64,000 bases of DNA, taken from Chitinophagales bacterium (GTDB lineage Bacteria > Bacteroidota > Bacteroidia > Chitinophagales > Chitinophagaceae). Positions 2,579 through 64,000 of this stretch are shown here, in pieces. Location of the stretch: assembly GCA_015654595.1 (NCBI GenBank), contig JAATGQ010000011.1:1-64000 (forward strand), written 5' to 3'. The notes under the pieces were generated by a model that worked only from the letters and a program-made list of their open reading frames with translations, was not told the origin of the DNA and made no database searches. Each line of letters begins with the position of its first letter. Position 1 is the stretch's first letter. Both the position numbers and the translations under genes were made by a program.

Positions 2579-2587
2579 GATAGGGGA

Positions 2588-6089: not shown

Positions 6090-6103
6090 TATGCCTATCT
6101 TTA
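6071..6103 (+). promoter_or_regulatory. Bacteroidota-type promoter for the Lrp-exporter operon
   Basis: TTTG at 6071-6074 and TATCTTTA at 6096-6103, 21 nt apart, match TTTG-N19-TAnnTTTG with one mismatch. Transcription would start near 6110, just before ATG 6120. Confidence 0.5.
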
Positions 6104-6119
6104 GTGTAAACTAATCGCA

Positions 6120-6593
6120 ATGGAAGTCACGCTGGATAATATTGACCTTCGCATTCTCGAACTCATGCAGGCAAATGCCCGTATCTCGAATGTCGATATG
6201 GCCAAGCAGTTGGAAATGGCGCCTTCTGCGGTACTCGAACGGGTGAAGAAGTTGGAGAACAAGAAAGTTATCCGCGGGTACTCGGCCAGTATTGATCCAG
6301 TCCATGTGGATCAGAAGCTGCTGGCCTTTATTTTTATCCGGACCAATGAACCAATGGGTTGCAGCGTCTCTGGGCCGGCTCTTGCAAAGATCCCTGAAGT
6401 GCAGGAAGTGCATAGTATTGCAGGAGAAGATTGTTTTCTGGTGAAGGTACGCACGACCGATTCCGCTGCCCTTATCGCGTTGATGCGAAATGAATTTGGA
6501 AAGATCCCTGGTGTTCAGTCTACAAAAACGACCATCGTACTTGAAACCGTAAAAGAAGAACAGAAGATCCAGATTCCCACTTTTAAAAAATAA
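6120..6593 (+). CDS. Lrp/AsnC-family transcriptional regulator
   Basis: A 157-aa regulator. Residues 1-60 form the AsnC-type winged HTH (LDNIDLRILELMQANARISN, then MAPSAVLERVKKLENKKVIRGY). Residues about 65-145 form the RAM ligand-binding domain (AFIFIRTNE...VHSIAGEDCFLVKVRTTD). Family members sense amino acids or related metabolites and often control a neighbouring transporter. The next gene starts 4 nt after the stop and encodes a DMT exporter, so the pair is likely an amino-acid or metabolite efflux unit regulated by this protein. The inverted repeat at 6041-6089 is its probable operator. Confidence 0.93.
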   Translation: MEVTLDNIDLRILELMQANARISNVDMAKQLEMAPSAVLERVKKLENKKVIRGYSASIDPVHVDQKLLAFIFIRTNEPMGCSVSGPALAKIPEVQEVHSIAGEDCFLVKVRTTDSAALIALMRNEFGKIPGVQSTKTTIVLETVKEEQKIQIPTFKK

Positions 6594-6597
6594 TCAT

Positions 6598-7725: not shown

Positions 7726-7883
7726 ATAAGCGGGAGGCGGGGCGGTAATACGCAGTTTCTTGGTTTATTATATGTATATAGCTTATATATTGTTGTCGTT
7801 TTCTACAGAATTCCGCCAAAAAGCGCAATTATTTGGTAACTTGGACGCGGTAAGGAACTAGGTTCCTTTGCAAAAAACCGTCC

Positions 7884-11476: not shown

Positions 11477-11492
11477 TTCTTCAAATTTCACG

Positions 11493-12347: not shown

Positions 12348-12364
12348 CAATATCACACATACTT

Positions 12365-47640: not shown

Positions 47641-47772
47641 CGGCGCTGCGCATTTTTATTATGGACGGGCTTTTTTTCGCTGTTGGGCCGACGCGGGGAT
47701 GGACGGGGGCACGGGGCTGGCCGGTATGCGAGGCGCCTTGCACAGCATGCCGCTGCGGCCCTGGCCGCGGAG

Positions 47773-47978
47773 GGGCGGGTGCGTGGACCCTGTATGATGA
47801 GACCCTGGCGCATTTTGTGGGGGGGTAAGAAGAGGGTAAGAAGGGGTGGGGGTGGGTGTGGGTGTAGGTGAAGATGTGGGTGCAGTTGTGGGTGAAGATA
47901 TGGGTGTAGGTGTGGGTGAAGATGTGGGGCGGGTGCATGGACCCTGTATGATGAGACCCCGGCGCATTTTGTGGGGGG
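47773..47978. repeat. 52-bp direct repeat flanking a GTGGGTG tract
   Basis: Copies at 47773-47824 and 47927-47978 are 52 bp with two mismatches, including ACCCTGTATGATGAGACC. Between them, 47838-47926 is made of degenerate GTGGGTGwAGrT-like hexamer/nonamer repeats. No coding potential recognised. Confidence 0.88.
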
Positions 47979-48388: not shown

Positions 48389-51300
48389 ATGAAAAAAAGT
48401 CAGATCTTTGGAGTAACTCCTTTCGAAAGACCGGATGTGCAGCTGGCGTTGGCTATAGAAAAAGCCGGCGCTTATCCGGTGCTCAGTCTGGGACGTGATA
48501 AAGCAATAGCCGCGGCTGCATTAAAAGAGATGGCTGCGCGTTGCGACCGCCGCTGGGGCGTTTGTTTAGTCGAGCCTTTATGGGAAGACCTGTCTTTGCC
48601 GGACGTGGTCGATCTGGTGGTGCTGCCGTATGGTTTGAGTCGCGGCGCGAATAGTTGGCTGCGGCGTGATGAAGGGGCGCGGCGTGGTGAAGGGTTTGGT
48701 GCGCGGGCCGATGAAAGCGGTCGTGGTAAGGGTTCGGAGGCGCGGGACGGGATACGCACTTTATACCAGGTGCATTCGATGGAAGAGGCGCTGGCTGCTT
48801 CTGCGGCCGGGGCTCGCTCTCTTATTATAAAGGGCAATGAAGCTGCTGGCCGGGTTGGATCTGACTCTTCTTTTATTTTTTTTCAACGGATGCGTCGTCA
48901 GCTGCCGGAGATTAGTTTGTTTGTGCAAGGCGGGATCGGCGTTCATACGATGGCGGCACTTACGGCGCTGGGTGCGGCAGGGGTTGTGCTGGATAGTCAG
49001 CTGGTATTGTTTGCTGCATGCAGCGCCTCTGTTGAGACGAAGAAAATATGTGAGCATCTCAATGGTCAGGAAACGAAAGTGGTAGAAGGCCGGCGGATAC
49101 TGGTTCGTCCTAATTCGCCGGAACTGCCGCTGGGACAGGATATCGCGCTTTCGGCAGATCTGGTTCGCCGATATAAGACCCTGGACAGACTGGTGTTTGG
49201 ACTTCATGAGGCGGCCCATGGTTACCTGAGACAGGCCAAGGCTAAACCTGCGATTGCACGGGATGGCGCCTTTGCCAAGGCTTATAACCTGGAATATCCA
49301 ATCGCTCAGGGCCCTATGACAAGGGTCAGTGACGTGCCGGACTTTGGCGCGCGGGTTGGCGAAGGCGGGGGGCTGCCCTTTGTTGCGCTTTCGCTTTTGA
49401 AAGGCGATCAGGCGCGTACTCTTATCCGTGAAACGGGCCGGTTGGCTGGCTCACGGACCTGGGGGGTGGGTATCCTTGGCTTTGCGCCTGCTGAATTAAG
49501 GGAAGAGCAGCTTGGCTACATCCTGGAGGAAAAGCCGCCGGTTGTGCTTATCGCGGGTGGACGACCCTCGCAGGCTAAGCCGCTTGAGAAAGCTGGTATC
49601 CGTACCTTCCTGCATGTGCCCTCGGTGGCTTTGCTGGATATATTTTTGAAAGAGGGCAGCCGACGGATGGTGTTTGAAGGCCGGGAATGCGGCGGACATG
49701 TTGGTCCTTTGTATAGTCTGATCCTTTGGGAAAAGCAGATCGCCCGGTTGATGCAGGAAGAGAGCCTGGAAGGAATGGAAATACTCTTTGCGGGAGGGAT
49801 CCATGATGATCTTTCCGCCGCCTTTGTTTCTGTTATGGCAGCGCCGCTGGCTACGAGAGGCGCGTGTATCGGCGTGTTGATGGGGACTGCTTATCTGTAT
49901 ACGGAAGAAGCGGTAGCCTCTGGCGCTATCGTTCCGACCTTTCAGCAGCAGGCGGTTGCGCATATCAATACTTGTTTATTGGAGACGGCGCCGGGGCATG
50001 AGACGCGTTGCCTGGATACGGACTTTGTTGCGCTGTTTGGCCGGGAGAAGGAGATGCTGCAGGACAGCGGACTTGATAAGCAGGAGATCTGGGCGCGCCT
50101 GGAAAGTCTAAACGTGGGCCGGCTCAGGATTGCTGCAAAGGGCCTGGAAAGGCGAGATGATCAGCTAGTCTCCATAGATGAAACCGAACAGCTTTCCTCC
50201 GGTATGTATATGATCGGGCAGGTCGTTGCTTTGCAAGACAAGATAACCACCATCAGGAGACTGCATGAAACGGTTGCGGTGGATAGTGTTCGCTTGTTGG
50301 AGGCGGCTGAGTTGCCATCGCTTCCGGAAAGTTCTGTAAAGCCGTTGGATATCGCGGTGATCGGGATGGCTTGTATCTATCCCGGCGCCAGAAATATAGA
50401 AGAGTACTGGCGCAATATCATCCTTGGTAAGGATGCGATCACGGAAGTGCCTGACGAAAGATGGAATAAGGAGCTGTATTTTGATCCTCACTCTAACAAT
50501 GGAGACAAATCTCCTTCGAAATGGGGCGGGTTTATCCCGCGTATTGATTTTGACCCGATGGAATTTGGTATACCGCCTCAGTCCCTGGCCGCGATCGAGC
50601 CCTCGCAGCTGCTGAGTCTGCTTGTTGCCAGGCAGGCCCTGGAGAACGCGGGTTATGCGGGACCGGAGGCTGATAAGGAAAATGTATCGGTGATCATTGG
50701 CGCAGAAGGGGGAAACCATTTGTCGAGCAGCTATGGATTTCGTTGTCTTTATCCGCAGCTCTTTGGCGCGATCCCGGCGGAGCTGGATCAGGCGCTTCCC
50801 CGATTGACGGAAGACAGCTTCCCCGGTGTGCTGGCCAATGTGATTGCGGGACGCATCACCAACCGTCTTGATCTGGGCGGCCGGAATTATACGGTCGATG
50901 CGGCTTGCGCCTCTTCTCTCGCGGCTGTCGACCTGGCCTGCCAGGAGCTTGTGCTTGGCAAGTCAGATATGGTGATTGCCGGAGCAGTCGATCTGCACAA
51001 TGATATCAATGACTATTTGCTTTTCTCGAGTACGCATGCGCTTTCGCGTAATGGACGCTGCATGACCTTCGATTCTTCTGCCGACGGTATTGCGCTTGGG
51101 GAAGGGGTGGCCATGCTGGTCCTCAAACGATATGAAGATGCGCAGCGGGACGGAGACAATGTTTATGCTGTGATCAAGGGTGTTGGGGGAAGCAGCGACG
51201 GCAAGAGTCTTGGGCTCACGGCTCCGAGAAGGGCCGGACAGGAAAAGGCACTGCAGCGGGCTTATCAGCAGGCTGGCATCTCGCCGGTGAAGGTGGGACT

Positions 51301-54300
51301 TTTTGAAGCCCACGGCACGGGGACGGTTGTCGGCGATAAGACGGAATTGTCCGCTTTGACGGATCTGATGACGGCGTGCGGGGCTATTGCCGGGCAGACG
51401 CATTTGGGGTCTGTCAAGACGCAGATCGGGCATACCAAATGTGCGGCGGGGATGGCGGGGCTTATCAAGGCCGTGTTGTCGGTCTATCATGGAGTGAAGC
51501 CGCCGACCTTGCATCTGAAGACGCCGAACCAGTATTATAATAGGGAAACGAGTCCTTTTGCTTTCCATACGCAGAGCGGGTTGTGGAATGAGACGACGCG
51601 TGTTGCGGGTGTAAGCGCGTTTGGTTTCGGCGGGACGAATTTTCATGCGGTGTTGCAGAGTGCGGGAGAGGCAGCCGGCCAGCATGGTTTGGGCCGTGAT
51701 GGGGAACAGGGGGGTGCTGTGAAAGGAGACGCGGCGGCAGTTGAAAACAGACCGGTACTGGATGCGTGGCCGACGGAGCTGTTTGTTTTTAGAGGCGACA
51801 CCTATGAGGAGGCAATGGAATTGTTAAGGACTGTTCGTGCGATCCTGCTGAACAGCGACACGACACAATGTCGTGATCTGGCCTATTCGCTGGTGTGTCA
51901 TTCGGATAAGCCGGTGCAGCTGTCGATAGTTGCGGATTGTGCCGATGATCTATTGATCAAGATGGATCTTGCGTTGAGCGGAGCCGGCGCCAGGGGGCTT
52001 TATCCGCTGAAGCCGGTGGAGGGGAAGGCTGCGTTTCTTTTCTCGGGGCAGGGAAGTCAGCAGGTGAATATGGGAAGGGAATTGCTTGTGCTGTTCCCGT
52101 TCATGCGGAAGTTGCTTCGCGAGTATCCGCATTATGAGAAGCTGCTGTTTCCGGATGCGGTGTTTGATGAGCAGGCAAAAAAGGAACAAAAAGAAAATAT
52201 TCGTGATACGCGTGTTGCGCAACCCTTATTGGGGATAATAGAGCATGCGCTTGCCGGCTTGCTTCGGCATTGGGGAATAGAGCCGGATATGGCGGCGGGT
52301 CATAGTTATGGTGAGCTGCCGGCTTTGTGTTTTGCCGGTGTTTTTCCTGACACTGCGCTGGTTGCCTTGAGTGAGAAGCGTGCGGCTTCGATCCTCGACG
52401 CTATTGGCGAAGACAAGGGGATGATGGTGGCCGTGAATGCTGCGGGGGATGTGTTGGAGACCTTGTTGGCTGGTGTGGAGGGCGTGTATGCTGTCAATCA
52501 TAATTCGTCCCGGCAGTGGGTATTGGCGGGTACGACGAAAGGAGTAAGGACGCTGATCGAACAATTGAAAGAAAGAAAGCTGTCTTACCGGCAGCTGGAA
52601 GTGGCTTGTGCCTTTCATAGTCCCTTATTGAATGGAGCGGATCTGCGCTTTTTGTCGGTGTTGAATGAGTTGCCAATGCAGGCGCCCCGGATACCTGTCT
52701 GGTCGAATACCAGCGGAGGCCTTTATCCAACGGAGGCGGATGCTATTCGGGGGCGGTTGGCGGAGCACCTGGTGAAGCCGGTGTTGTTTCATCAGCAGAT
52801 CGAGCAGATGGCGCAGGAAGGAGCAAAGATCTGGATCGAAGTGGGGCCGGGTAAGGTTTTGTGCGGACTGGTGAAAGATATTCTTGGCCAGGAAGAAGGC
52901 ATCTGGCATACGGAAGATACGCAGGGTTTGTCTCATCTGTTATCGGTGGCGGCAAGCTGGCTGTCGACAGGCCGGTCGATGAACCTGGATCGGTTGTTTG
53001 AAGGAAGGAATGTCCGGATGTTGGATCTGAGTAGTCCGGATAACTATAAGAAGAGCGCTACGACCTGGGTGATCAACGGGCATACGGCTATGCCTGTATA
53101 TGGGTCGTTGCCGGCGCATGGAGCCGTGCCGGTGGTGAAGCCGCTGGTGTTGGCGGGGGCTGCTGTTGTGCCGGCAGGAGGCGTGGGGCAGACGGTTTCG
53201 AATGCCGACCGGATGGTGGAAGAATATTTAAAGACGACGCAGCTGATGATCCAGGCGCAGCGGGATGTATTGCTACAGTACCTGGGGCAATCGCCGACAG
53301 CTTTTGAAAGACCGGCAGCTTTGCCCGCGTCCTCGAATACCGCGACTCCTGTCTCAGCTGTAACGGTTGCTGCCGAGCCGGTAGAGGCAGTGAAATCTGC
53401 ATTGCCAGAGCCGCCGGTGGAGAAGCTGGATGTAAAGATGATATTATTAAAAGTGGTCAGCGACAAGACCGGTTACCCGATCGATATGCTGGGGCTTGAC
53501 CAGGATATGGAGGCTGATCTGAGTATAGATTCTATCAAGCGGATGGAGATCATTGCCACGCTGAAGTCGAAGCTGGGTGAGCTGGGCACGGGGCAGGAGA
53601 ATGAGGCGGATCTGACGGAGCAGCTTTCGGCTATCAAGACTTTGCAGGGTATCATCGATTGGGTTGGGATCCGTGTGGGGATGGATGGGAATGCGGTGGA
53701 AGAGGCGCGAAAGATCATCGAGGAGGGATTCTCTCATAATGAGCAGGAAGAAACGCTTACGCGTATGCGCTTTAGTCTTGATCCCTGCCCGATGTTGTCG
53801 ATGGATGGCAGCAGTCTGCGGGGAGCAAGGCTGGCGATTGCGGGCGGCGGCGCTCAGGGCATTTTATTGAAGACGAGGCTGGAAGAAGACGGAGTCGTTG
53901 TTGATATACTGGAAGATGGTGCTGGAACTGTCCTTGCGAAAGGCCAACGGGCGATGGATGAGTACGACGGCCTGGTCCTTTTGAATGCGGTCAGTTCTGC
54001 GACGGAAGTTGAAGCCGAGTTGTCGGCGCTGGATGCGTTTTCGCTGATCAAATCGCTTGATCTTGGTCGGGTGCGATGGGTATATGCCGTTTCGGGCCGG
54101 CGTCGGTCGCATGGATTCAGCGGACTGTTGAAGAGCCTGGAAAAGGAGTTTCCTTCTTTGTGCTGCAGATCCATCCAGCTGGATGCGGCCTTTGATCCGG
54201 AGTTGATCATAGGGGAATTGTTGAATACGGACAGGTTGCCGGAGATCGTATACCAGGATGGGATTCGTCACCAGGTGGCGGCTGTTGCTTCTCCGCTGAT

Positions 54301-55231
54301 TGCCGGCGGGGAGTCGGACATCCGGTTGACAAAGGATTCGGTGGTGTTGGTGCTGGGCGGCGGCCAGGGGATTACGGCCGAGCTGATGCTGCGGCTTTCG
54401 CAGGAAAATCCTTGTCGTTATGTGGTGGTGGGGAGGAGTCCCGATCCGCGGGAAACAAAGATTGCGGATTATCCGGCGCAGCTGGAACTGGTGTTGGCGG
54501 AAGACGGGGTGGAAGACGGAGCTGGCAGCAGCGGTGCGGTTGACGGCAGCGGTCTGGGGTTGACGAGAGACCGGATAAGAGAGGCGTTGATAGCCGAGCG
54601 TCGGATAAAGCATCCTGCGGAGATCGAGAGGAAGGTAGACGAGATCTATCGGCATCAGCAGGTAATGGAGACGTTGCAGGCGCTGGAGAGCAATGGTGCT
54701 GTTGCCGACTATTATTCGCTGGATGTACGGGACGCAGAAAAGCTGACTTCCCTTATACAAGAGCTATACCGGAGATATGACCGGATCGATGGGGTGATCC
54801 ATGGAGCGGGGGTGTTGGAGGATAAGCTGCTGCGGCAAAAGAGTGTAGAATCTTTTAACCGCGTTTTTTCGACGAAGGTTGAGCCGTTGAAAACCCTGGA
54901 GACGACGATAAAGGATGATGTCCAATTCGTGGCGCTTTTCTCGAGTGTGTCATCTGTCTTTGGCAATCGTGGCCAGACCGACTACGCTGCTGCCAATAGT
55001 GTGCTTGACCGGACAGCGATGGAGTGGAATGCTGCCATCGATGGGAAGGTGTTGGCAATCAACTGGGGGCCCTGGAAAGGCAAGGGTATGGTCTCGGTTG
55101 AATTGGAGCGGGAGTATGCCCGGCGTGGGATCGCGTTGATCCCTTTGCAAACGGGAGCGGATGCATTTATCAATGAACTGAAATACGGAAGGGATGCCCA
55201 GGTGCTGATCATGGCGGGGCAAACATTCTAA
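48389..55231 (+). CDS. Type I PKS/secondary-lipid synthase: NPD-NPD-KS-AT-ACP-KR
   Basis: 2280 aa. Residues about 1-270 and 295-590 are two TIM-barrel segments of the nitronate monooxygenase/FabK/NPD type. The second has YPIAQGPMTRVSD, ECGGHVG (near 433) and FAGGIHDDLSAAF. The first is shorter, lacks ECGGHVG, and holds an Arg/Gly/Glu insert at about 91-121. KS: 654-1090, with Cys840 (VDAACASS), His975 (EAHGTGT) and His1015 (GHTKCAAG). AT: about 1215-1500, with Ser1306 (GHSYGE) and His1410. ACP: Ser1715 in LSIDSIKRMEI, the LGxDSIKR form typical of PUFA/Hgl-type synthases. KR: GGGQGI at 1990 and Tyr2199 in TDYAAAN. The FMN domains may supply enoyl reduction. It is the first gene of the operon and ends 10 nt before the second synthase gene. 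Confidence 0.93.
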   Translation: MKKSQIFGVTPFERPDVQLALAIEKAGAYPVLSLGRDKAIAAAALKEMAARCDRRWGVCLVEPLWEDLSLPDVVDLVVLPYGLSRGANSWLRRDEGARRGEGFGARADESGRGKGSEARDGIRTLYQVHSMEEALAASAAGARSLIIKGNEAAGRVGSDSSFIFFQRMRRQLPEISLFVQGGIGVHTMAALTALGAAGVVLDSQLVLFAACSASVETKKICEHLNGQETKVVEGRRILVRPNSPELPLGQDIALSADLVRRYKTLDRLVFGLHEAAHGYLRQAKAKPAIARDGAFAKAYNLEYPIAQGPMTRVSDVPDFGARVGEGGGLPFVALSLLKGDQARTLIRETGRLAGSRTWGVGILGFAPAELREEQLGYILEEKPPVVLIAGGRPSQAKPLEKAGIRTFLHVPSVALLDIFLKEGSRRMVFEGRECGGHVGPLYSLILWEKQIARLMQEESLEGMEILFAGGIHDDLSAAFVSVMAAPLATRGACIGVLMGTAYLYTEEAVASGAIVPTFQQQAVAHINTCLLETAPGHETRCLDTDFVALFGREKEMLQDSGLDKQEIWARLESLNVGRLRIAAKGLERRDDQLVSIDETEQLSSGMYMIGQVVALQDKITTIRRLHETVAVDSVRLLEAAELPSLPESSVKPLDIAVIGMACIYPGARNIEEYWRNIILGKDAITEVPDERWNKELYFDPHSNNGDKSPSKWGGFIPRIDFDPMEFGIPPQSLAAIEPSQLLSLLVARQALENAGYAGPEADKENVSVIIGAEGGNHLSSSYGFRCLYPQLFGAIPAELDQALPRLTEDSFPGVLANVIAGRITNRLDLGGRNYTVDAACASSLAAVDLACQELVLGKSDMVIAGAVDLHNDINDYLLFSSTHALSRNGRCMTFDSSADGIALGEGVAMLVLKRYEDAQRDGDNVYAVIKGVGGSSDGKSLGLTAPRRAGQEKALQRAYQQAGISPVKVGLFEAHGTGTVVGDKTELSALTDLMTACGAIAGQTHLGSVKTQIGHTKCAAGMAGLIKAVLSVYHGVKPPTLHLKTPNQYYNRETSPFAFHTQSGLWNETTRVAGVSAFGFGGTNFHAVLQSAGEAAGQHGLGRDGEQGGAVKGDAAAVENRPVLDAWPTELFVFRGDTYEEAMELLRTVRAILLNSDTTQCRDLAYSLVCHSDKPVQLSIVADCADDLLIKMDLALSGAGARGLYPLKPVEGKAAFLFSGQGSQQVNMGRELLVLFPFMRKLLREYPHYEKLLFPDAVFDEQAKKEQKENIRDTRVAQPLLGIIEHALAGLLRHWGIEPDMAAGHSYGELPALCFAGVFPDTALVALSEKRAASILDAIGEDKGMMVAVNAAGDVLETLLAGVEGVYAVNHNSSRQWVLAGTTKGVRTLIEQLKERKLSYRQLEVACAFHSPLLNGADLRFLSVLNELPMQAPRIPVWSNTSGGLYPTEADAIRGRLAEHLVKPVLFHQQIEQMAQEGAKIWIEVGPGKVLCGLVKDILGQEEGIWHTEDTQGLSHLLSVAASWLSTGRSMNLDRLFEGRNVRMLDLSSPDNYKKSATTWVINGHTAMPVYGSLPAHGAVPVVKPLVLAGAAVVPAGGVGQTVSNADRMVEEYLKTTQLMIQAQRDVLLQYLGQSPTAFERPAALPASSNTATPVSAVTVAAEPVEAVKSALPEPPVEKLDVKMILLKVVSDKTGYPIDMLGLDQDMEADLSIDSIKRMEIIATLKSKLGELGTGQENEADLTEQLSAIKTLQGIIDWVGIRVGMDGNAVEEARKIIEEGFSHNEQEETLTRMRFSLDPCPMLSMDGSSLRGARLAIAGGGAQGILLKTRLEEDGVVVDILEDGAGTVLAKGQRAMDEYDGLVLLNAVSSATEVEAELSALDAFSLIKSLDLGRVRWVYAVSGRRRSHGFSGLLKSLEKEFPSLCCRSIQLDAAFDPELIIGELLNTDRLPEIVYQDGIRHQVAAVASPLIAGGESDIRLTKDSVVLVLGGGQGITAELMLRLSQENPCRYVVVGRSPDPRETKIADYPAQLELVLAEDGVEDGAGSSGAVDGSGLGLTRDRIREALIAERRIKHPAEIERKVDEIYRHQQVMETLQALESNGAVADYYSLDVRDAEKLTSLIQELYRRYDRIDGVIHGAGVLEDKLLRQKSVESFNRVFSTKVEPLKTLETTIKDDVQFVALFSSVSSVFGNRGQTDYAAANSVLDRTAMEWNAAIDGKVLAINWGPWKGKGMVSVELEREYARRGIALIPLQTGADAFINELKYGRDAQVLIMAGQTF

Positions 55232-55241
55232 CACTTATCTG

Positions 55242-58200
55242 ATGAAAGAAAAGAGCGATATCGCTATTGTCGGGATGTCGTGCATCTTCCCGGGTGCGGG
55301 GGATGTAGAAACTTTTTGGAATAATATAGCCCAAAAGGTGGATGCGATTGGTCCTGTTCCTGAGAGCAGGATGGAGGCCTTATTTTTTGACAAGAAAGGC
55401 GGCGGGCCGGATCGGTTTTATTGTTCGCGGGGCGGCTTTATCGATGACTTTGTTTCTTTCGATGCAGCATCCTACGGGCTTCTTCCTGTTGCAGTGGAGG
55501 GGATGGAGCCGGAGCAGCTGTTGGCGTTGAAGATGGCGCATCGGGCTTTGAGCGATGCGGGTGTGTGGGAGAAGGATCTTTCTTTGGATACGGCGGGTGT
55601 GATCATTGGAAAGGGCAATTATACGGGGCCTGGTGCTACGCGTGCGATAGAGATCATCCGGACGGGGCAGCAGCTGGTGGAGTTGTTGAAGGAGCTGGCG
55701 CCGGATGCGGATCCGGAGCTTGTGGAAAGGGTCAAAAAAGAATACCAGTTAAAGAAGGGGAGGTTTGCGGCGGATACGGCGATGGGGTTGATACCGAACC
55801 TGGTCGCTTCGCTGGTGTCGAACCGCTTCGATATGGGCGGTTGTGCGTATACGGTAGACGCAGCTTGTGCGAGTAGCCTGGTGGCGGTTGATCATGCGGT
55901 GCGGGAGTTGCGTGGCGGCGGCGCTGATCTGATGTTGGCGGGCGGGGTACATGCGGGGCAGAATGCGCCTTTCTGGAGCATCTTTAGTCAGCTGGGGGCG
56001 ATGTCGAGGGGGGAAGTTCTTAGGGCGTTTGACCGGCGGGCCGACGGTCTTCTGATAGGAGAGGGCTGTGGGTTTGTCGTGTTGCGGCGGTTGGAGGATG
56101 CGATTCGGGATGGGCATAGGATCTACGCGGTCATCAAGGGGGTGGGTGTTTGCAGTGATGGGGCTGGCGTCAGTGTGATGAGTCCTTCGGTGAAGGGGCA
56201 GGCGAAGGCGATCCGGAAGGCCTGGGCTGATGCGGGTTTGGGAGAAGATGCGTGGGGTGGAATGGCTGCGGCGGCCGGTAGTTTGTCGCGTGCGGCTGTG
56301 GACGCTGCTGGCGTCGGTGTGGCTGAGGCTGGTAGCGGCGCGGTGGAAGGGGCTGCTAGCAGGACGGAAGGGTTTGATGACGCTGGCGGTGGGAAGGGGG
56401 ATGCCGCGGTGCATCCGCGGCTGGCCTTTATTGAGGCGCATGGAACGGGGACGCCATTGGGTGATAAGATAGAGTTGGAAACATTGGAGTCCGTCTTTGG
56501 GCGGGGGCCGCAATTATATAAGATTGGGATTGGTACGGTGAAGTCGAATATTGGTCATGCGATGCCTGCGGCGGGCATTGCGGGGTTGATCAAATCGGCG
56601 TTGGCGCTTTATCACCGGAGGATTCCGCCGACGCTGCATTGTGAAGAGCCGTTGATGGTGTTGGAGGGAAGTCGGTTTGTGCCGGTGAAGGAGCTGAGTA
56701 TTTGGGAAGAGGGGCCGATGCGGGCGGGGGTGAATGCGTTTGGGTTTGGGGGGATCAATGCGCATGTGGTACTTGAATCATATGGGGATGCGGGTGTGGC
56801 GGCTGCGCTGGACAAGCCGTCTGTTCTGAATAGGGGGATTGCGCTGGATGGGGGACTCGTGCTGGATGGAGGGTGTGTGTTGGACAGGCCGCTTGTATTG
56901 GCAAGGGAAAGTAAAGAAGAATTGGAGGCTGCGTTGGCTGCTGGGGGGGATTGGACGGAGTTGCCCGTGGGACTGGGGAAGTGGCGTATCGTCGTTTTTG
57001 ATCCGAGTGCAGAAAGGCTTGAGAAGGCATTGAAGATTGTCAGACGCGGGAATGCATGGCGCAATAGACAAGACATTTGGTTTACGAATGAGCCGTTGAT
57101 CAGCGGCGGTGGAAAGATAGCGTTTTTATTTCCTGGCCTCGATGGGCTGGGTGGGGAAGAGATGGGAAATGTGACGGATGCTGCGCTCAGGTTGACGGAG
57201 CGAAGTCACGCCCTGGATGCGGCGTTGAAGGAACTTGGCGTAAGGCCTGATCACAATGCCGGTCATAGCGTTGGGGAGTGGCTGGCGGGGAGAAGCGCGG
57301 GTTGGGTATCGGAGGAGACGGTGAAGCATTTGCTGCAGCAGATCGGCAAACAGTCCTTTGATCTGGAAGAAGCGGGATTTTTGATGGTGGGCTGCGGCTA
57401 TGACCAGGTTGCCCCGATGATGGCGGATATTCCCGATTTGTTTTTGTCAAACGATAACTGTCCGCAGCAGGTCATTCTTTGCGGGACGAATTCTGCGTTG
57501 GATCGGCTAGTGGTACGATTGAAGGAAGAGCAGGTCTTTCATCAGATGCTGCCTTTCCGGTCAGGGTTTCATTCGCCCTTTCTGAAAGACAGGCTTGGTG
57601 GGATGATGGAGCAGTTAAGGCGGGTGAAGTTCCAACGGGCGGCGATCCCGTTGTGGTCGGCTACGAGCCTGGACGTATATCCTTCGGATGAGTCGGCTAT
57701 TCATGCTTTGAGTATAAGGCATCTGCTTGAGCCGGTGCGTTTCAGGCAGCTGACCCGGCGGCTGCTGGAAGAAGGCGTACGTGTCTTTATACAGGTTGGA
57801 TCGGGGGGATTGATTGGATTTGTCGACGATACCTTAAAGAACGAGCGGTATAGTGCGGTGGCGGCACGTGTGCCTTCCCGTGAGGGGGCGTTGCAGTTGC
57901 AGCGGGTGCTGGCGGCCTTGTATGTGGAAGGGGCTGTGGTGAAGATGGAGTTTTTGAGGGGGGAGGGCAGCCGGGAGCATAGGTCGGCGGGCGGAGCGGG
58001 AGTTGCCGGTTTGGGACACGGTATTGCCGAAGGTGTTGCCGGCGAGGCGGGTATCGGCGTTGGACTTGGTATTGCCGGGGGGAATGTGGGTGTTGGTGTT
58101 GCCGGTGTTGGGCCGGAGACGGCTGCGGCTGGTGGCGGCATGGGGAAGACTGCGGCTGTGAGAAAGGTTGAGGGTGCCGGGAAGCTTTTACAGATGGGGT

Positions 58201-60101
58201 CTCCGATGATAAAAAGGTTGGAGTCACTGAAAGCGTTGATGAAGCGGGGGGAGACTAAGGTCGACGTCGGAGTAAGGGCTTTGGCCGCTGCGGCTTTAGC
58301 GGGGGTAAACAGCGGCGAATCGAGTATAGAGCGGGCCTTTTTGAATAATATGGCGGCGATGGCGGAAAGCCAGTCGGAGATAATGACTTTGCTGGGAAAG
58401 CGGCAAACGGGGAGCGGCGCTGGTCCGGAGCTGCGGCATCGGGCTGCCTTTCGCTGGCCGTTGGATATTTCGCTGCGTTCGCATCCTTACCTGATCGATC
58501 ATGCGTTGGTTCGTCAGCGTGAGGGATGGATGGATCCGAGCGATATGGATCCGGTTATACCGATGACGATGATGCTGGAGCTACTGGGGGAGATTGCGGA
58601 GGCGCAAGCTCCCGGTATCACGGTGAAGCTGATGAAGAATATCAGGATCCTGCAGTGGATGAATGTGGCTGCTCCTTTCCGTGAGACGGTTCAGGGGCAG
58701 TGGATCGGAGAAGAGGAAATGAGTCTTACCCTCGAAAAGTATGCGTCTGCTGAAATGGTGTTGGGTGATTTTGCGAAGGCTGTCGAATCGTTTCTTTTGC
58801 CAATTGGAGCGCCATTATCCTTGAGAGAGGCGGGGCTTTCGGGTGTGGAAAGGCTGACGACTGAGTTGATCTATGAAAAGCACATGTTTCATGGTCCTGC
58901 TTACCAAGGTATAAGGAGGGTGGTTGCGATGGGCGAGGAAGGGATTACGGGTATCATCGAGGGCAGTACGGGATATGGTTCGCTGCTGGATAATGCCGGG
59001 CAGCTCTTTGGGCTCTGGCTGCAGTTTGTGTTGGACAAGGACAGGATCGCGTTCCCGGTCAAGATAAGGGAGATCGAGTTTTACGAGGACAGGCATGCGC
59101 AGGAGGGCCGTTTTGAATGTACGTGCCGGCTGACAAGTCTCAACGATGGTTTTGCTACCGCTGATTTTGTGCTGAAGAAAGAGGGGCGTGTATGGGCGGT
59201 GGTCAGGGGATGGCAGAACAGGCGTTTGGAGATCGATCAGCAGTTCTGGCGGGTGGCGATGGCGCCGCTGCAGCATTTTCTTTCTGAAGAGATAGATGCG
59301 GGCGTTTTTTTCTTTCATAACGCTTATAGCCGGCTCGTATCTTGGGAGCTGGTCTTCAAGCGTTATTTTGATGCAAGGACGAGGGGGGAGTTTGCGTCGA
59401 TGTCACCGGCGAGAAAGAAGGAGTGGACGATCGGCCGGATTGCGGGTAAGGATGCGGTTCGTGCGTTGTTGCTTCGATTGAAGAAGGAGGCTTACTATCC
59501 CATCGAGCTGGATATCGTTAATGACGGGCAAGGCAGGCCGCTGGTAAGGGGCAATGGGGCGAGAGGCGTGTCTGTCTCGCTGGCGCATAAAGGGACGGAT
59601 TCGGTTGCTATAGCCCGCTACGGGTCACCGGTGGGGATCGATATCGAGCGGATCGAACATCGGGATGAAGATTTTGTGAAGGGGGCATTCTGTCCGGAGG
59701 AGCTGGCGTTGTGGGCGGAGACCTGGCAGGAGCGGGCAGATGGTGAGGAGACCGCGCAAGTGCGGGTGGGGGGTGCGACGGAGGGCGGCGAAGATGAGGA
59801 AAATGCTGTTGACGGGCGTGAGGGTGGAGAAGAGGGTGATGGTGAGGGAACCGGGGAGGGGCATCCTAATGACGAGGTGCGATCGGGATGGATTTTCGCG
59901 GCGGGGCAGGAAGACATGGATGAATGGATCACGCGGCTTTGGGTGGCCAAGGAGGCTTATGGGAAATATATCGGCGTTGGGTTGAAGGGCAATCCCAAGA
60001 ACTGGCGGGTGGAGGAAGTGAAGGACGATTTGCTGCGGATAAAAGAAGTCGTAATCAAAACCATTAAATACCAAAACTATATTATCGGATGGACGCTGTA
60101 A
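55242..60101 (+). CDS. Type I PKS subunit: KS-AT-DH-phosphopantetheinyl transferase
   Basis: 1619 aa. KS: 5-500, with the full triad Cys209 (VDAACASS), His400 (EAHGTGT) and His439 (NIGHAM), so not a chain-length factor lacking Cys. AT: about 630-900, with Ser676 (GHSVGE) and His777 (GFHSPF). DH-like double hotdog: about 1065-1400, with His1087 (HPYLIDHA), PVIPMTMMLE and Asp1250 (LLDNAGQ). A PPTase-like C-terminus has SLAHKG, Asp1467 in VGIDIERIE, and WVAKEAYGKY at 1567, so the complex could activate its own ACPs. Low-complexity Gly/Ala/Glu inserts interrupt the KS (about 338-390), the AT-DH linker (about 908-975) and the PPTase (about 1490-1550). No ACP domain is in this protein; one follows as a separate gene. 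Confidence 0.92.
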   Translation: MKEKSDIAIVGMSCIFPGAGDVETFWNNIAQKVDAIGPVPESRMEALFFDKKGGGPDRFYCSRGGFIDDFVSFDAASYGLLPVAVEGMEPEQLLALKMAHRALSDAGVWEKDLSLDTAGVIIGKGNYTGPGATRAIEIIRTGQQLVELLKELAPDADPELVERVKKEYQLKKGRFAADTAMGLIPNLVASLVSNRFDMGGCAYTVDAACASSLVAVDHAVRELRGGGADLMLAGGVHAGQNAPFWSIFSQLGAMSRGEVLRAFDRRADGLLIGEGCGFVVLRRLEDAIRDGHRIYAVIKGVGVCSDGAGVSVMSPSVKGQAKAIRKAWADAGLGEDAWGGMAAAAGSLSRAAVDAAGVGVAEAGSGAVEGAASRTEGFDDAGGGKGDAAVHPRLAFIEAHGTGTPLGDKIELETLESVFGRGPQLYKIGIGTVKSNIGHAMPAAGIAGLIKSALALYHRRIPPTLHCEEPLMVLEGSRFVPVKELSIWEEGPMRAGVNAFGFGGINAHVVLESYGDAGVAAALDKPSVLNRGIALDGGLVLDGGCVLDRPLVLARESKEELEAALAAGGDWTELPVGLGKWRIVVFDPSAERLEKALKIVRRGNAWRNRQDIWFTNEPLISGGGKIAFLFPGLDGLGGEEMGNVTDAALRLTERSHALDAALKELGVRPDHNAGHSVGEWLAGRSAGWVSEETVKHLLQQIGKQSFDLEEAGFLMVGCGYDQVAPMMADIPDLFLSNDNCPQQVILCGTNSALDRLVVRLKEEQVFHQMLPFRSGFHSPFLKDRLGGMMEQLRRVKFQRAAIPLWSATSLDVYPSDESAIHALSIRHLLEPVRFRQLTRRLLEEGVRVFIQVGSGGLIGFVDDTLKNERYSAVAARVPSREGALQLQRVLAALYVEGAVVKMEFLRGEGSREHRSAGGAGVAGLGHGIAEGVAGEAGIGVGLGIAGGNVGVGVAGVGPETAAAGGGMGKTAAVRKVEGAGKLLQMGSPMIKRLESLKALMKRGETKVDVGVRALAAAALAGVNSGESSIERAFLNNMAAMAESQSEIMTLLGKRQTGSGAGPELRHRAAFRWPLDISLRSHPYLIDHALVRQREGWMDPSDMDPVIPMTMMLELLGEIAEAQAPGITVKLMKNIRILQWMNVAAPFRETVQGQWIGEEEMSLTLEKYASAEMVLGDFAKAVESFLLPIGAPLSLREAGLSGVERLTTELIYEKHMFHGPAYQGIRRVVAMGEEGITGIIEGSTGYGSLLDNAGQLFGLWLQFVLDKDRIAFPVKIREIEFYEDRHAQEGRFECTCRLTSLNDGFATADFVLKKEGRVWAVVRGWQNRRLEIDQQFWRVAMAPLQHFLSEEIDAGVFFFHNAYSRLVSWELVFKRYFDARTRGEFASMSPARKKEWTIGRIAGKDAVRALLLRLKKEAYYPIELDIVNDGQGRPLVRGNGARGVSVSLAHKGTDSVAIARYGSPVGIDIERIEHRDEDFVKGAFCPEELALWAETWQERADGEETAQVRVGGATEGGEDEENAVDGREGGEEGDGEGTGEGHPNDEVRSGWIFAAGQEDMDEWITRLWVAKEAYGKYIGVGLKGNPKNWRVEEVKDDLLRIKEVVIKTIKYQNYIIGWTL

Positions 60102-60385
60102 TGTCAAACCCAAAGGAAGAGCAGATCTTTTTGATGCTGAGAAAGTTTATCGGAGAAGTGATTGGTGAAGAGTTTGCCGAAGAAATGGAGATCGGGCCCG
60201 ATAGCTCGTTTACAAGGGACCTGGAGATGGACAGTATCGAGATCGTGGCTTTCTCGGAGAAAGTAAAGAAATATTTTGGACAGCAGGTCGATTTTCCCGG
60301 CTGGTTGTCGGGGATGGATATCGATCAGTTGATCGCATTGAATATTCGTGATATAATAGAGTATATCGACAAATGCCAGTCATAG
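60101..60385 (+). CDS. Acyl carrier protein of the lipid-synthase operon
   Basis: 94 aa from ATG 60101, which overlaps the synthase stop as TAATG. An in-frame ATG 12 nt upstream is possible. The carrier motif is FTRDLEMDSIEIVAFSEKV with phosphopantetheine Ser45. Helix I reads EQIFLMLRKFIGEVIGEEF and the C-terminal helix DQLIALNIRDIIEYI. Its end overlaps the next gene by 13 nt. It probably hands the finished chain, or a starter, between the synthase and the hydrolase/acyltransferase enzymes. That role is inferred. Confidence 0.92.
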   Translation: MSNPKEEQIFLMLRKFIGEVIGEEFAEEMEIGPDSSFTRDLEMDSIEIVAFSEKVKKYFGQQVDFPGWLSGMDIDQLIALNIRDIIEYIDKCQS

Positions 60386-62301
60386 AAGTAAACGGTAGAG
60401 GTGTTCATTACCAGGAGTTCAACAAAGGAGCCCGGGAAACCATCGTATTGATACATGGTATGCTGGGTAATCTGTCCGTCTATTATTTCAGGATAGCGCC
60501 GATCCTTGCCGCTGATTATCATGTGGTGCTATACGATCTGAAGAGTCATGGAATGAGCGAACGAGCGGCGGAAGGGTATGATCTGGTTTCGATGGCTGGT
60601 GAATTGGCGGCTTTATTGGATGAACTCGGTTTGCGGCGGGTACACCTGGGCGGGTATAGCTTCGGCGCGTTGATCGCTTTGAAGGCTGCCGCGCTTTATC
60701 CCAGCCGGGTAAAACGATTGATTGTAGTAGAAGGTCCTGACCCGAGCGATAAGGAGCCATTGAGGGTGATGACCGAATACAGCCGTGAGGCCTTTGATCA
60801 GTTTGTCAATGATTCCGGGATAAGTTTTGGTCCGAGGCAACGCGAACGGCTGCATCGAATGTATGCCTATATTTTTCAAGGTACGACGGTTCGAGAGGAC
60901 ATGCGAAAAGAACACGATTTCTTTTATGGTGAGGAGTTAAGCCGGGTCACTCACAAGACCTTGCTTATTTATGGGCGTGCATCGGATTGCGCGGAGGCAA
61001 GCTGCGTATTGGAGAACAAACTGCCGGATGCAAGGCTGGTGCTGATAGAGGGAGATCATAACGTGCCTGTACAGCAGCCGGCCGCTGTAGCGGAGCTGAT
61101 AAGGGATTGGTGTCGTGAGACGAGGAGGTTTTTGTTTGTGGTGCCGCCTTTGTTTGGGCATGTCAATCCAACGCTGGGTGTCGGCGCCGAATTATTAAAG
61201 CGTGGGCATGCCGTTGCCTGGGCGAGTCTTGATCCTGCATTGGAGTCGATGCTTCCGGCTGGCGGGGAGTTGTTATTGATAAAGGAAGAAGCAGAAAAGG
61301 AGCATCGCGGAAGGATCTCTGAAAAGAATGTCTATGGGATCGAGAGTATCAAATTCCTATACGATGATGTGTTGATCCCGTTGAACCGGCATATGTACGG
61401 GGGGATACTTCGGTGTGTAGAATCCTTTAAGCCGGATGTCTGTATCAACGATCACCAGGTCTTTTCGGGGGCTATTGCTGCCCGTCAATCGGGAATAGCT
61501 TATGCTACTTCTGTGACGGCGCCGGCGGCGGTCCGGATGAGGGAAGACCTGCCGGGTGTACACCAATGGGAGAGTCAGCGTATGGTGGCTTTACAGCAGG
61601 AGTTGGGTGTAGAAGGTGAGCGTTGTATTGCCTGTAGTGAGCAGCTGGCTCTACTGTTTACCTCGCGTGCTTTTTTTGGAGAAATGTGTTTGCCGGATCA
61701 GTATCACTTTGTCGGCGTCGTGAATAACCGGCCTGCTGCTGTCGGCGATTTTGACTGGAAATGGCTGGAAGCAAGGAATGATCAGCCTCGTGTGCTGGTC
61801 TCTATCGGGACGACGTTTGATGGCCATCAAAAGAAGGACTTCTTTGAAAAGGTGGCGGAGGCGTTGGGGGCAAAGCCGTTATCGGTGATCGTTGTCGCCG
61901 ATCCTGCGATACTGGACAACTGGCCCGAAAACTTCCTGGTACGGGCGCGGGTGCCGCAGCTGGAGCTGTTACCGCATCTGGATGCGGTGCTTTGTCATGG
62001 AGGGCATAATACGACCTGTGAATCATTGATCAATGGGCTGCCGCTGGTGGTTGTTCCTATTGCTTACGATCAATCCTATGTTGCCGGCCGGGTCGTGGCA
62101 ACCGGTTGTGGGCTCCGGTTGAATTTCAAGCGGCTTCGCGTTGCGGATATTTTAAATTCAGTAGAAGAGGTGTTGATGAATCCCGTGTATAGGGAGGCGG
62201 CGCTGCGGGTCGGCGTGTCGTTTAAAGAAGCCGGTGGAGCGGCAAGAGCGGCAGGTTTATTGGAAGAAATAGCGGAAGAAAAAGTTACAGCAATCGTCTA
62301 A
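60373..62301 (+). CDS. Alpha/beta-hydrolase fused to a UGT-type glycosyltransferase
   Basis: 642 aa. Residues 1-250 are an alpha/beta-hydrolase: TIVLIHGMLGNLS oxyanion region, DLKSHGMSE, nucleophile Ser96 in GGYSFGAL, acid in GRASD, and His229 in EGDHNVP. Residues about 253-642 are a GT1/MGT-like glycosyltransferase: start RRFLFVVPPLFGHVNPTLGV, acceptor-side DHQVFSGAIAARQ, and the nucleotide-sugar signature around His542 (LCHGGHNTTCESLINGLPLV). The hydrolase could release or transfer the acyl chain from an ACP, and the transferase could glycosylate it. The join falls at a natural domain boundary, so this looks like a true fusion rather than a misread stop. It overlaps the ACP gene by 13 nt. 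Confidence 0.92.
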   Translation: MPVIEVNGRGVHYQEFNKGARETIVLIHGMLGNLSVYYFRIAPILAADYHVVLYDLKSHGMSERAAEGYDLVSMAGELAALLDELGLRRVHLGGYSFGALIALKAAALYPSRVKRLIVVEGPDPSDKEPLRVMTEYSREAFDQFVNDSGISFGPRQRERLHRMYAYIFQGTTVREDMRKEHDFFYGEELSRVTHKTLLIYGRASDCAEASCVLENKLPDARLVLIEGDHNVPVQQPAAVAELIRDWCRETRRFLFVVPPLFGHVNPTLGVGAELLKRGHAVAWASLDPALESMLPAGGELLLIKEEAEKEHRGRISEKNVYGIESIKFLYDDVLIPLNRHMYGGILRCVESFKPDVCINDHQVFSGAIAARQSGIAYATSVTAPAAVRMREDLPGVHQWESQRMVALQQELGVEGERCIACSEQLALLFTSRAFFGEMCLPDQYHFVGVVNNRPAAVGDFDWKWLEARNDQPRVLVSIGTTFDGHQKKDFFEKVAEALGAKPLSVIVVADPAILDNWPENFLVRARVPQLELLPHLDAVLCHGGHNTTCESLINGLPLVVVPIAYDQSYVAGRVVATGCGLRLNFKRLRVADILNSVEEVLMNPVYREAALRVGVSFKEAGGAARAAGLLEEIAEEKVTAIV

Positions 62302-62315
62302 ACAAAAACTATAGT

Positions 62316-63587
62316 ATGTCGAGATACCTGTTCGTTGTACCACCCTTTTTTGGCCATATCAGTCCTACGCTGAGCGTAGGAGCTGCCTTGTTGAGCAGGG
62401 GGCATGAAGTGATGTGGGCGGGGTTACAGGGGATTGCGTCGGATAGGGTTCCTTCCGGCGGGACTTTTGTGGTCCTGAAATCTGACCCGGAGGAGCTTGA
62501 ACGGATATTGAGGCGTCAGGATGATGGTCCTTCCGTGGGCGGGGCGGAGGTGTTGAAGCTGGCGTTGGAGGAGACGTATATACCGTTGGGCAGGATGATG
62601 ATGCGCGAATTGCCGGCGTTGGCGGCGCATTATCAGCCTGACGTCATCGTGAACGACTGTATCTGTTTTGCGGGGGCTTTCTGTGCGTATCTGATGGGTG
62701 TGCGTTGTGTGACGACTACGCCCGTCCCGCCGGACGTGATGGGTTCAGCTATGGACATGCCCAGGATCAGGGAGTGGCAGGAGCGGTTGATCCGGGATCT
62801 GCAAAGAGAGTGTGGGATTTACAGCGATCGGGTGGTGATCCATTCCGATCTGATGAATATCGTGTTTACCTCGAAGTTGTTCGCGGGGATTGCGGAGCCT
62901 GCGGGCTCCTTACAGTTCGTGGGTCCTGTAAGGGGAAGGCCGGAGGAAGGAGATTTTGATTGGAAGAGACTGGAAGAGTCTGCCGGGCAGCGGATATTTA
63001 TTTCACTGGGGACGCTGTTGGTGGATATCCGGAGGGCCTTTTTCAGGAAAATGGTCGAGGCTTTCCGGGACCAGCCGGTGACGATCGTCGCGGCTACTGA
63101 TCCCGCTATACTGGAAGAGTGGCCGGAGAATTTTATCGTACAGGCTTATGTGCCGCAAGCGAGGGTATTGGAGAAGATGGATATGGTGATTTGTCATGGC
63201 GGGTTTAATACGGTCAATGACGCGCTATTGAATGAGTTGCCGATACTGATCATCCCGATCGCATACGATCATTTTCACACCGCCTCGCTGATCGAAAGGG
63301 CGGGTTGTGGGATCTCTATCCGTTACAAGCGGCTTCGGATAGCCGATGTGCAGCGGGCGGCGGATCGGTTGTTGGAGGATAAAGAATATCGGCAGAATGC
63401 TGCAAGGGTAAAGGAAAGTTTTCGGCAGAGCGGGGGAAGTGTGCGTGCGGTGGAGCTGCTGGAGGAGGTGGCGGGGAGGCCGGTCGAGGCTGCGGCTGGA
63501 GATGAGGGGGATAGAAGGCTGGTTGATGACATGCTGTTTGGCGGGAATGTTGGGTCGAATGGCGGGTCAATAAAACAGAACCAATGA
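62316..63587 (+). CDS. UGT/MGT-family glycosyltransferase
   Basis: 423 aa. It starts SRYLFVVPPFFGHISPTLSV, nearly the same as the glycosyltransferase half of the preceding protein, so the two arose by duplication. Signature ICHGGFNTVNDALLNELPIL with His294, then PIAYDHFHTASLIERAGCG. Family members move a sugar from a nucleotide donor to small lipophilic acceptors (macrolides, carotenoids, glycolipids). The C-terminal ~30 residues are Gly/Asn-rich and not part of the fold. It lies 14 nt after the fusion gene and overlaps the next start as ATGA. Two transferases suggest two sugars or two acceptor sites. Confidence 0.94.
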   Translation: MSRYLFVVPPFFGHISPTLSVGAALLSRGHEVMWAGLQGIASDRVPSGGTFVVLKSDPEELERILRRQDDGPSVGGAEVLKLALEETYIPLGRMMMRELPALAAHYQPDVIVNDCICFAGAFCAYLMGVRCVTTTPVPPDVMGSAMDMPRIREWQERLIRDLQRECGIYSDRVVIHSDLMNIVFTSKLFAGIAEPAGSLQFVGPVRGRPEEGDFDWKRLEESAGQRIFISLGTLLVDIRRAFFRKMVEAFRDQPVTIVAATDPAILEEWPENFIVQAYVPQARVLEKMDMVICHGGFNTVNDALLNELPILIIPIAYDHFHTASLIERAGCGISIRYKRLRIADVQRAADRLLEDKEYRQNAARVKESFRQSGGSVRAVELLEEVAGRPVEAAAGDEGDRRLVDDMLFGGNVGSNGGSIKQNQ

Positions 63588-64000
63588 GACGGCAGTTGTT
63601 CTTCCTGGAAAGAGTTTTATATGGCGATGGCACATTGCCTTTCAACGGTGTGTTTGCGTTGAAGTTAAAAGGCCGTCCGGATGGCGGTTTGCTTGGGGAT
63701 GCGTTGAAGAAGATGCAGGCTCGTCATCCTTTGTTGAGGAGTCATATCGAGGTCGATGAGAAACAGATGCCGTGGTTTGTAGCAGGAGATGAATGGCCGG
63801 CGATCCCGGTACGGTTTGGGAAGCGTCTTTCCGACACCCAATGGACGGGTGAGGTGTTAGATGAACTGGCGACGGCATTTGATACTGCGGCGGGTCCTCT
63901 TTTTCGGGTCGTCTGGCTGGAAGATGAGGAGTCGGTGGATCTGATCATCTGTTTTCATCATTGTATGTGTGACGGAGGCAGCGGGTTGTGTTTGTTGTCG
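63584..64000 (+). CDS. Condensation/PapA-like acyltransferase, N-terminal part, cut by window edge
   Basis: The first 139 codons, from ATG 63584. The pattern is that of the CoA/ACP-dependent acyltransferase superfamily (NRPS condensation, PapA, WS/DGAT): FLERVLYGDGTLPFNGVFAL, LKKMQARHPLLRSHIEV, FDTAAGPLFRVVWLED, and the HHxxxDG active site with His125-His126, Asp130 and Gly131 in CFHHCMCDGGSG. Such enzymes esterify hydroxyls of polyketide or glycolipid products. Its place after two glycosyltransferases suggests acylation of the sugar or lipid product. There is no sign of A or T domains in the visible part. Confidence 0.85.
   Translation, partial: MRRQLFFLERVLYGDGTLPFNGVFALKLKGRPDGGLLGDALKKMQARHPLLRSHIEVDEKQMPWFVAGDEWPAIPVRFGKRLSDTQWTGEVLDELATAFDTAAGPLFRVVWLEDEESVDLIICFHHCMCDGGSGLCLLS

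Follow-up and report, generated by a model that had tools for sequence, protein, structure and literature searches.

What is made by the operon that begins at position 48389, on the plus strand, of contig JAATGQ010000011.1 of a Chitinophagales bacterium (GenBank assembly GCA_015654595.1)? The contig comprises 68368 bases, and its positions 1-64,000 form the window, i.e. the whole 64,000-nucleotide stretch of DNA that was analysed. A reading made from the nucleotide sequence alone (the sequence-only reading) had proposed that a reduced long chain is made, glycosylated and acylated, to give an undescribed surface glycolipid. Our results make it reasonably probable that the genes of this operon code for an iterative type I fatty-acid/polyketide synthase with two subunits, which belongs to the secondary-lipid (Pfa-related) lineage, together with a line of glycosylation and acylation enzymes. 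The lineage and the tailoring genes of the earlier proposal are supported by the data presented here, while a surface glycolipid as the product can only be inferred.

Gene order and conservation of the operon

The operon opens with two synthase genes, PKS1 (48389-55231, 2280 aa, assigned from the list of open reading frames (ORFs), Pfam and NCBIfam), a PfaD-PfaA-like fusion with the domain order NPD1-NPD2-KS1-AT1-ACP-KR, and PKS2 (55242-60101, 1619 aa, assigned from the ORF list and Pfam), with the order KS2-AT2-DH-PPTase (PKS, polyketide synthase; KS, ketosynthase; AT, acyltransferase; ACP, acyl carrier protein; KR, ketoreductase; DH, dehydratase; PPTase, phosphopantetheinyl transferase; NPD, FabK/NMO-like domain). 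These are followed, on the same plus strand, by a stand-alone ACP (60089-60385, 98 aa, PP-binding in Pfam), an alpha/beta hydrolase fused to a first glycosyltransferase, GT1 (60373-62301, 642 aa), a second glycosyltransferase, GT2 (62316-63587, 423 aa), and a condensation/PapA5-like acyltransferase, PapA1 (440 aa), which starts at 63584, is held by the window up to 64000 and ends at contig position 64906. The gaps between successive genes are, from the ORF coordinates, +10, -13, -13, +14 and -4 nt. Of the layout given in the sequence-only reading, the six genes, the strand and the other gaps stand; the gap of -1 nt between PKS2 and ACP fits an alternative internal ATG at 60101, but the homologues open like the longer form from 60089, and the gap is then -13 nt. 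That reading had a single PapA-like enzyme; the gene is confirmed, but a second one, PapA2, lies beyond the window on the plus strand (contig 64878-66218, from the ORF list).

Named species genomes were scanned with an alignment of the DH region (10 sequences), and the best 80 of the 211 stretches encoding it (L045-L124) were analysed, their genes being labelled by BLAST against the window's own genes. The order PKS1-PKS2-ACP-hydrolase-GT1-GT2-PapA-PapA is common to these loci with few exceptions, so that the operon is not singular, and, because the order recurs in 80 loci, a chance gene cluster is excluded. PKS2, ACP, hydrolase, GT1, GT2 and at least one PapA gene are found in all 80 loci; PKS1 is at least partially present in 79, the exception being L103, whose contig starts inside PKS2, and only its end is present in L045. 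At least two PapA genes occur in 79 loci (L118 has one), with extra copies mainly in Dyadobacter and Mucilaginibacter; in L056, L078, L087 and L118 all the PapA copies score best with PapA2. Some genes are split into two ORFs (PKS1 in L064, GT2 in L079, PapA1 in L081 and L099), and in L092 the listed hydrolase ORF begins ahead of ACP. GT1 and GT2 are fused in nine loci from Flavobacterium, Chryseobacterium, Sphingobacterium and a Sphingobacteriaceae, which amounts to one change on the tree. The hydrolase-GT1 fusion of the window was seen in none of the 80 named loci, the two being separate genes in the homologues.

All the loci kept belong to Bacteroidota by title or lineage, save L116 ([Flexibacter] sp., no lineage), which is placed among Chitinophaga in the tree. 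Four orders are covered (Chitinophagales, Sphingobacteriales, Cytophagales and Flavobacteriales), and the carriers include Chitinophaga filiformis DSM 527, Pedobacter caeni DSM 16990 and Dyadobacter soli DSM 25329. Since the order is kept in 80 loci of four orders, the tailoring genes belong to the pathway.

Catalytic residues were compared in 79 PKS1 and 81 PKS2 proteins, namely the near-complete ORFs of the named loci, the window and the C56 paralogue (L010, G000:C56, positions 1-12941). This paralogue is another, divergent copy of the operon that the source genome carries; it breaks off within GT1, where its contig ends. Among the residues tested, those of KS1, AT1, ACP, KR and NPD2 are invariant in all 79 PKS1 proteins, and those of AT2, DH and PPTase in all 81 PKS2 proteins; the KS2 triad is intact in 80 of 81, with the C56 paralogue (Phe and Asn) as the sole exception. 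Taken together, a gene order kept over four orders and the retention of the tested catalytic residues point to selection for a product.

The PKS1+PKS2 tree (FastTree) contains 79 rows, i.e. 77 named loci from the best 80, the window and the C56 paralogue, and is to be read with the warning that two long branches, those of the window and the paralogue, meet in it. Host order changes four times on this tree, against a minimum of three; frequent transfer between orders is not supported, and this number suits inheritance with many losses, perhaps with one transfer linking Sphingobacterium and Flavobacteriales. The operon is present twice in Pedobacter panaciterrae O48 (NZ_LGEL01000011.1; L051 and L052), the copies lying in opposite orientation at a distance of about 70 kb; their synthase rows are identical in the tree, which may reflect a real duplication or an assembly artefact.

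Lineage and domains of the synthase

The domain set deduced in the sequence-only reading is backed by Pfam, structure and Protein Data Bank (PDB) matches. In PKS1, Pfam supports KS, AT, ACP, KR and NMO domains. KS1 (50342-51664) has Cys840, His975 and His1015, kept in 79/79 proteins, AT1 (52025-52894) the motifs GHSYG and AFHS, and the catalytic part of KR (54644-55093) Ser2186, Tyr2199 and Asn2203. The ACP of PKS1 (53435-53593, Ser1715) is present, judging from its motif, in a single copy, compared with two motifs in 75 of the 79 proteins; the motif reads LSIDSIKR instead of the LGxDSIKR type previously claimed. In PKS2, the catalytic Cys/His/His of KS2 (55254-56783) are present, and AT2 (57192-57848) has the motifs GHSVG and GFHS. 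The DH (58464-59276), whose His1087 and Asp1250 are kept in 81/81 proteins, was not listed in the whole-protein scan, but the DH region alone scores 28.7 bits against PF14765 (cut-off 23.7), and the best PDB matches of its predicted model (mean pLDDT 82) are PKS dehydratases. The PPTase domain (59319-60098) matches ACPS in Pfam, and its VSLAH motif is of the hShxH form.

In a KS tree of 38 rows, including five modular-PKS rows and FabF but neither HglE nor PksE, KS1 joins a Streptomyces KS1 (support 100/96), then a Rhodobacteraceae sequence (98/91), then Beijerinckia and Methylosinus (94/83) and finally two PfaA-like sequences (91/96). The labels of the Persicobacter and S. albogriseolus rows of this tree, and the two PfaA labels, are our own and stand on unannotated records; the branches of FabF and of one PfaC row are very long. 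KS2 groups with the Streptomyces KS2 (99/97), in a clade that the tree does not place among the other KSs. The five modular-PKS rows and FabF lie outside both clades, and an origin of KS1 from either was rejected. The earlier assignment to the lineage of the polyunsaturated fatty acid (PUFA) synthases has therefore held, KS1 standing in one clade (91/96) with PfaA-like and Type P KSs. Over NPD2-KS-AT, the best matches outside Bacteroidota in the plasmid collection are the Streptomyces version (46.5-46.8% identity), compared with about 40% for Type P or Type P-like synthases.

The two N-terminal domains of PKS1 had been read simply as a pair of NPD domains; both are present, but one is probably non-catalytic. 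The residue proposed as catalytic for FabK and PfaD, in the accessible text of PMC13311796, is the motif III His. It is kept in NPD2 (49241-50308, His437) in 79/79 proteins and in NPD1 (48389-49228, Arg155 at this position) in 0/79, where the residues found are K (33), R (18), L (13) and others (15). The His is also absent from NPD1 of four relatives from outside this set, with R in Streptomyces and Methylosinus, Q in Beijerinckia and W in a Rhodobacteraceae, so that the loss looks old. NPD1 scores 26.9 bits against NMO in Pfam (cut-off 28). As the His is missing in all 79 proteins and the QGPM motif of NPD2 was not observed where NPD1 begins, the idea that NPD1 is a further active reductase was rejected. 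The predicted NPD2 structure matches FabK (2z6i_A) with Z 33.1 and rmsd 2.6 over 312 aligned residues, compared with Z of at most 29.3 for PfaD; this comparison spans mainly residues 223-645 and hardly covers the NPD1 fold. NPD1 would pair with NPD2 as a structural partner, in contrast with the heterodimer of two enoyl reductase (ER) domains, both with His, described for Schizochytrium in the same accessible text (PMC13311796). A clear pseudo-reductase retained next to an active-type domain is found in Bacteroidota, Streptomyces and Alphaproteobacteria.

These features bear on whether the product could be a polyunsaturated fatty acid destined for membrane phospholipids, like that of the classical Pfa synthases. 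The position of KS1 and the best NCBIfam model of PKS1 (PfaA) speak for this, but only one DH is present, no CLF domain was seen in the Pfam scan of the window synthase proteins, the reductase is closer to FabK than to PfaD, and GT and PapA genes, for which we know of no role in PUFA synthesis, are present (GT1 and GT2 in 80/80 loci, at least two PapA genes in 79/80). Classical PUFA synthesis was rejected on these grounds, and we regard it as highly improbable. The layout is unlike that of the classical clusters, as the sequence-only reading had stated: although the proximal KS lineage is shared, Types A and B have, according to the accessible text of PMC3098273, 4-6 ACPs in pfaA, a pfaC with KS-CLF and two DHs, and separate pfaD and pfaE, whereas here there are one ACP in PKS1, a KS-AT-DH-PPTase protein with one DH, a reductase fused to PKS1 and a PPTase within PKS2.

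Tailoring enzymes

The hydrolase-GT1 fusion matches Abhydrolase and UDPGT in Pfam, with Ser96 (in GYSFG) and His229 in its hydrolase part, and the best PDB match of GT1 is the UDP-glucosyltransferase YjiC. GT2, of the UGT/MGT type, has GT domains in Pfam. PapA1 scores 36.2 bits against the Pfam Condensation family (cut-off 30.6), its best PDB sequence match is the phthiocerol/phthiodiolone dimycocerosyl transferase 8s6l (E 5.9e-14), and the two PapA_C scores, 15.9 and 26.3 bits, are under the cut-off of 30. The HHxxxDG motif is present in 80/80 PapA1-labelled proteins (HHCMCDG in the window); of the PapA2-labelled proteins, 72 of 94 have PHxxxDG and one is without any such motif.

These enzymes would also suit a product other than an envelope lipid, namely a secreted, glycosylated and acylated polyketide that serves as an antibiotic, a surfactant or a signal, with the GTs acting as in macrolide pathways, an explanation that we consider possible but on the unlikely side. 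KS1 does not group with the modular-PKS rows; the retention of KR, DH and NPD2 alike favours reduced chains; and PapA5-like enzymes act on lipids. For a secreted polyketide, in turn, speak the top scores of both GTs with the macrolide-family model TIGR01426, albeit below its cut-off, the location of the Streptomyces version on large plasmids, the part that Pfa-like synthases take in secreted antibiotics elsewhere (accessible text of PMC13291983), and the patchy presence of the operon. Matches were found in 22 of 79 Chitinophaga genomes and, in even draws that included the genome of origin, in 6/195 genomes of the family, 2/298 of the order and 4/395 of the phylum; none of the three congeners in the family draw matched.

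Comparison with known systems

Twenty types of secondary-lipid clusters were catalogued by Shulse and Allen (2011; PMC3098273, accessible text). Their Type N, from Chitinophaga pinensis and Chryseobacterium gleum, has an uncharacterised product, which was suggested to play a structural part in the resting bodies of C. pinensis; the hShxH form of the PPTase is given for Types M, N, O, P, R, S and T, and the word 'glycosyltransferase' does not occur in the main text. Two Chryseobacterium loci (L123 and L124) carry the operon described here. So does a Chitinophaga genome that we take to be C. pinensis DSM 2588, and on this ground the operon is probably the Type N synthase; the likeness is one of host occurrence and PPTase motif, not of Type N sequences, and the VSLAH of the window fits a form that is common to six other types too. 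The system is therefore undescribed, as had been claimed, as regards its product, but its layout has probably been catalogued already. Because named collection strains carry the operon, what Type N makes, a question that dates from 2011, becomes testable.

The plasmids of Streptomyces sp. NBC_01243 and NBC_00984 share PKS1, PKS2, ACP, hydrolase and a GT in the same order (L125, 15125-30099; L126, 15074-30045), with transposase genes nearby, but their operons, possibly of Type M, end in an S-adenosylmethionine (SAM) methyltransferase, and no second GT or PapA is annotated adjacent to them. BLAST favours a correspondence of the Streptomyces GT to GT1 (39% identity against 29% to GT2), but its branch in the GT tree is too long to tell GT1 from GT2.

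Beijerinckia indica ATCC 9039 was typed as Type P (PMC3098273, accessible text). Its plasmid encodes a PKS homologous to PKS1, including the NPD region (37.6-39.9% identity over 1,587-1,777 columns for Beijerinckia and Methylosinus). It also encodes a DH-PPTase protein, which lacks the KS2-AT2 behind which these domains are fused here. Two genes there are annotated as '3-oxoacyl-ACP synthase III C-terminal domain', and the one checked matches Chal_sti_synt_C; in contrast to these chalcone-synthase-like (type III PKS) genes, no match to the chalcone synthase family was found by family scans among the seven operon proteins. The Beijerinckia GT belongs to a different Pfam family from the window GTs. 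Type P includes the Ars synthase of alkylresorcinol lipids in Azotobacter, where fatty acids of C23-C25 are the products of ArsA (PMC4824345, accessible text).

More distant likenesses were also considered. The clade VI hybrid clusters of Aquimarina sp. TRL1 and Flavobacterium sp. N502540 combine a pfaDA fusion with a pfaBC homologue that includes a PPTase domain, but are linked to NRPS/PKS genes, and the Flavobacteriales pfaDA/pfaBC clusters were likened to an uncharacterised Renibacterium synthase; this likeness is by published description, not by sequence (PMC13291983, accessible text). No product for the operon and no account of its GT-GT-PapA-PapA tail turned up in the literature searched, subscription journals being mostly outside its reach. 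A type I PKS together with a PapA-like acyltransferase is also found in mycobacterial PapA-associated lipid pathways, a likeness of logic only. The enediyne synthase PksE is one chain, KS-AT-ACP-KR-DH-PPTase, whereas the operon has two chains with extra NPD, KS and AT domains. None of the terms hglE, PUFA, type I PKS, T1PKS and glycolipid appears in the text of a 2022 survey of Bacteroidetes clusters (PMC9248904). In Sphingobacterium thalpophilum, an antiSMASH region 'hglE-KS, T1PKS' without known relative is reported (PMC11446778, accessible text), the correspondence of which to the operon is not established.

Condition of the window copy

Nine in-frame insertions, each of 9-63 aa and private to the window copy, set its PKS1 and PKS2 apart from the homologues; their G+C is 0.59-0.70, compared with 0.55-0.57 for the whole genes. 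The six larger ones (48641-48733, 51662-51727, 54464-54535, 56250-56417, 57969-58154 and 59721-59909; G+C 0.65-0.70) are gapped in more than 90% of the homologues; that at 56250-56417 adds 56 aa to KS2, and that at 59721-59909 adds 63 aa to the PPTase. Low-complexity stretches of this kind reach beyond the operon, since Gly+Ala also exceeds 0.5 in the gene at 6598-7725, one other among the genes listed. The C56 paralogue has two ACP motifs in its PKS1 and no Gly/Ala-rich stretch like that of the window.

One could suppose from these insertions, the single ACP of PKS1 and the hydrolase-GT fusion absent from the 80 named loci that the window copy is decaying, its KS2 and PPTase damaged by low-complexity sequence. 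The insertions, however, are in frame and leave the tested catalytic residues untouched, and there is no stop within the genes; we think decay quite unlikely.

Proposed pathway and product

The following scheme, in which every reaction, the order of steps, the substrates, the chain length, the product and its location are inferred, is suggested by the above comparisons. The PPTase domain of PKS2 would activate the ACPs; AT1, KS1 and KR of PKS1 would then, with the DH of PKS2 and NPD2 (NPD1 being its non-catalytic structural partner), extend and reduce a malonyl-derived chain, which KS2-AT2 would begin or finish with the stand-alone ACP. The hydrolase would free the chain, GT1 and GT2 would add sugars, and the two PapA-like enzymes would esterify the glycoside with acyl groups, so that a long-chain (hydroxy)acid or alcohol, glycosylated and then acylated, may be the product.

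The gene sets are nested: a Type P core, the Streptomyces version with KS2-AT2, ACP, hydrolase and a GT in addition, and the Bacteroidota version with GT2 and the acyltransferases. This nesting supports a succession of synthesis, release, glycosylation and acylation, and leaves chain length, sugars and order of steps unfixed. By analogy, the Azotobacter product, joined to the Beijerinckia sequences, suggests that a PKS1-like chain and a DH-PPTase protein may suffice for reduced very-long chains. A more specific version, which we put forward as a tentative and rather doubtful proposal, is that this Ars-like engine makes a saturated very-long chain, while KS2-AT2, a deeply separate second KS-AT pair whose catalytic residues are intact, takes over with its own ACP the part that the type III PKS has in the Ars system and carries out a head-forming condensation. 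The hydroxyl so created would be glycosylated by the two GTs, with esterification by the two PapA enzymes to follow. If true, this would define a widespread, undescribed glycolipid class of Bacteroidota. In any case, since the tailoring genes are clustered, the outline of the product can be predicted.

Several points weigh against the preferred reading of a Pfa-related synthase with its glycosylation and acylation line. The evidence for it is of one kind, homology and genomic context. Several of the matches lie under the curated cut-offs: 922 bits against 1010.1 for PKS1 with TIGR02813 (PfaA), 85.6 against 453 for NPD2 with the FabK equivalog model, 185.7 and 187 against 260 for GT1 and GT2 with TIGR01426 (MGT), and 27.7 and 28.2 against 396 with the curated PapA5-type models. 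MGT-type GTs also act on macrolides, and the start or finish of the chain is a proposed, not an established, role for KS2, which in the C56 paralogue is without its Cys and one His. The window copy may be impaired, as two of its nine private insertions lie inside KS2 and PPTase. The Type P comparison, finally, joins Beijerinckia sequences to an Azotobacter Ars product taken from the literature, and Beijerinckia is not known to make phenolic lipids (PMC3098273, accessible text).

Sequences flanking the operon

Export and sugar genes had been expected past position 64000. None were seen up to the contig end, the last ORF before it having been left out of the family scan; this single long plus-strand ORF begins about 160 bases after PapA2 and continues off the contig end. 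In 62 of the 80 loci, a gene for a membrane protein of about 165 aa starts between 43 bases before and 11 bases after the operon end, and this family is a further gene of the operon in those loci. Two scanned copies had no Pfam match above cut-off, and between position 60001 and the end of the window contig no match to the protein was found. Upstream of the operon, a G-rich minisatellite with a 12/24-nt unit (47852-47935) is flanked, within 47772-47978, by two 53-nt direct repeats that are 96% identical.

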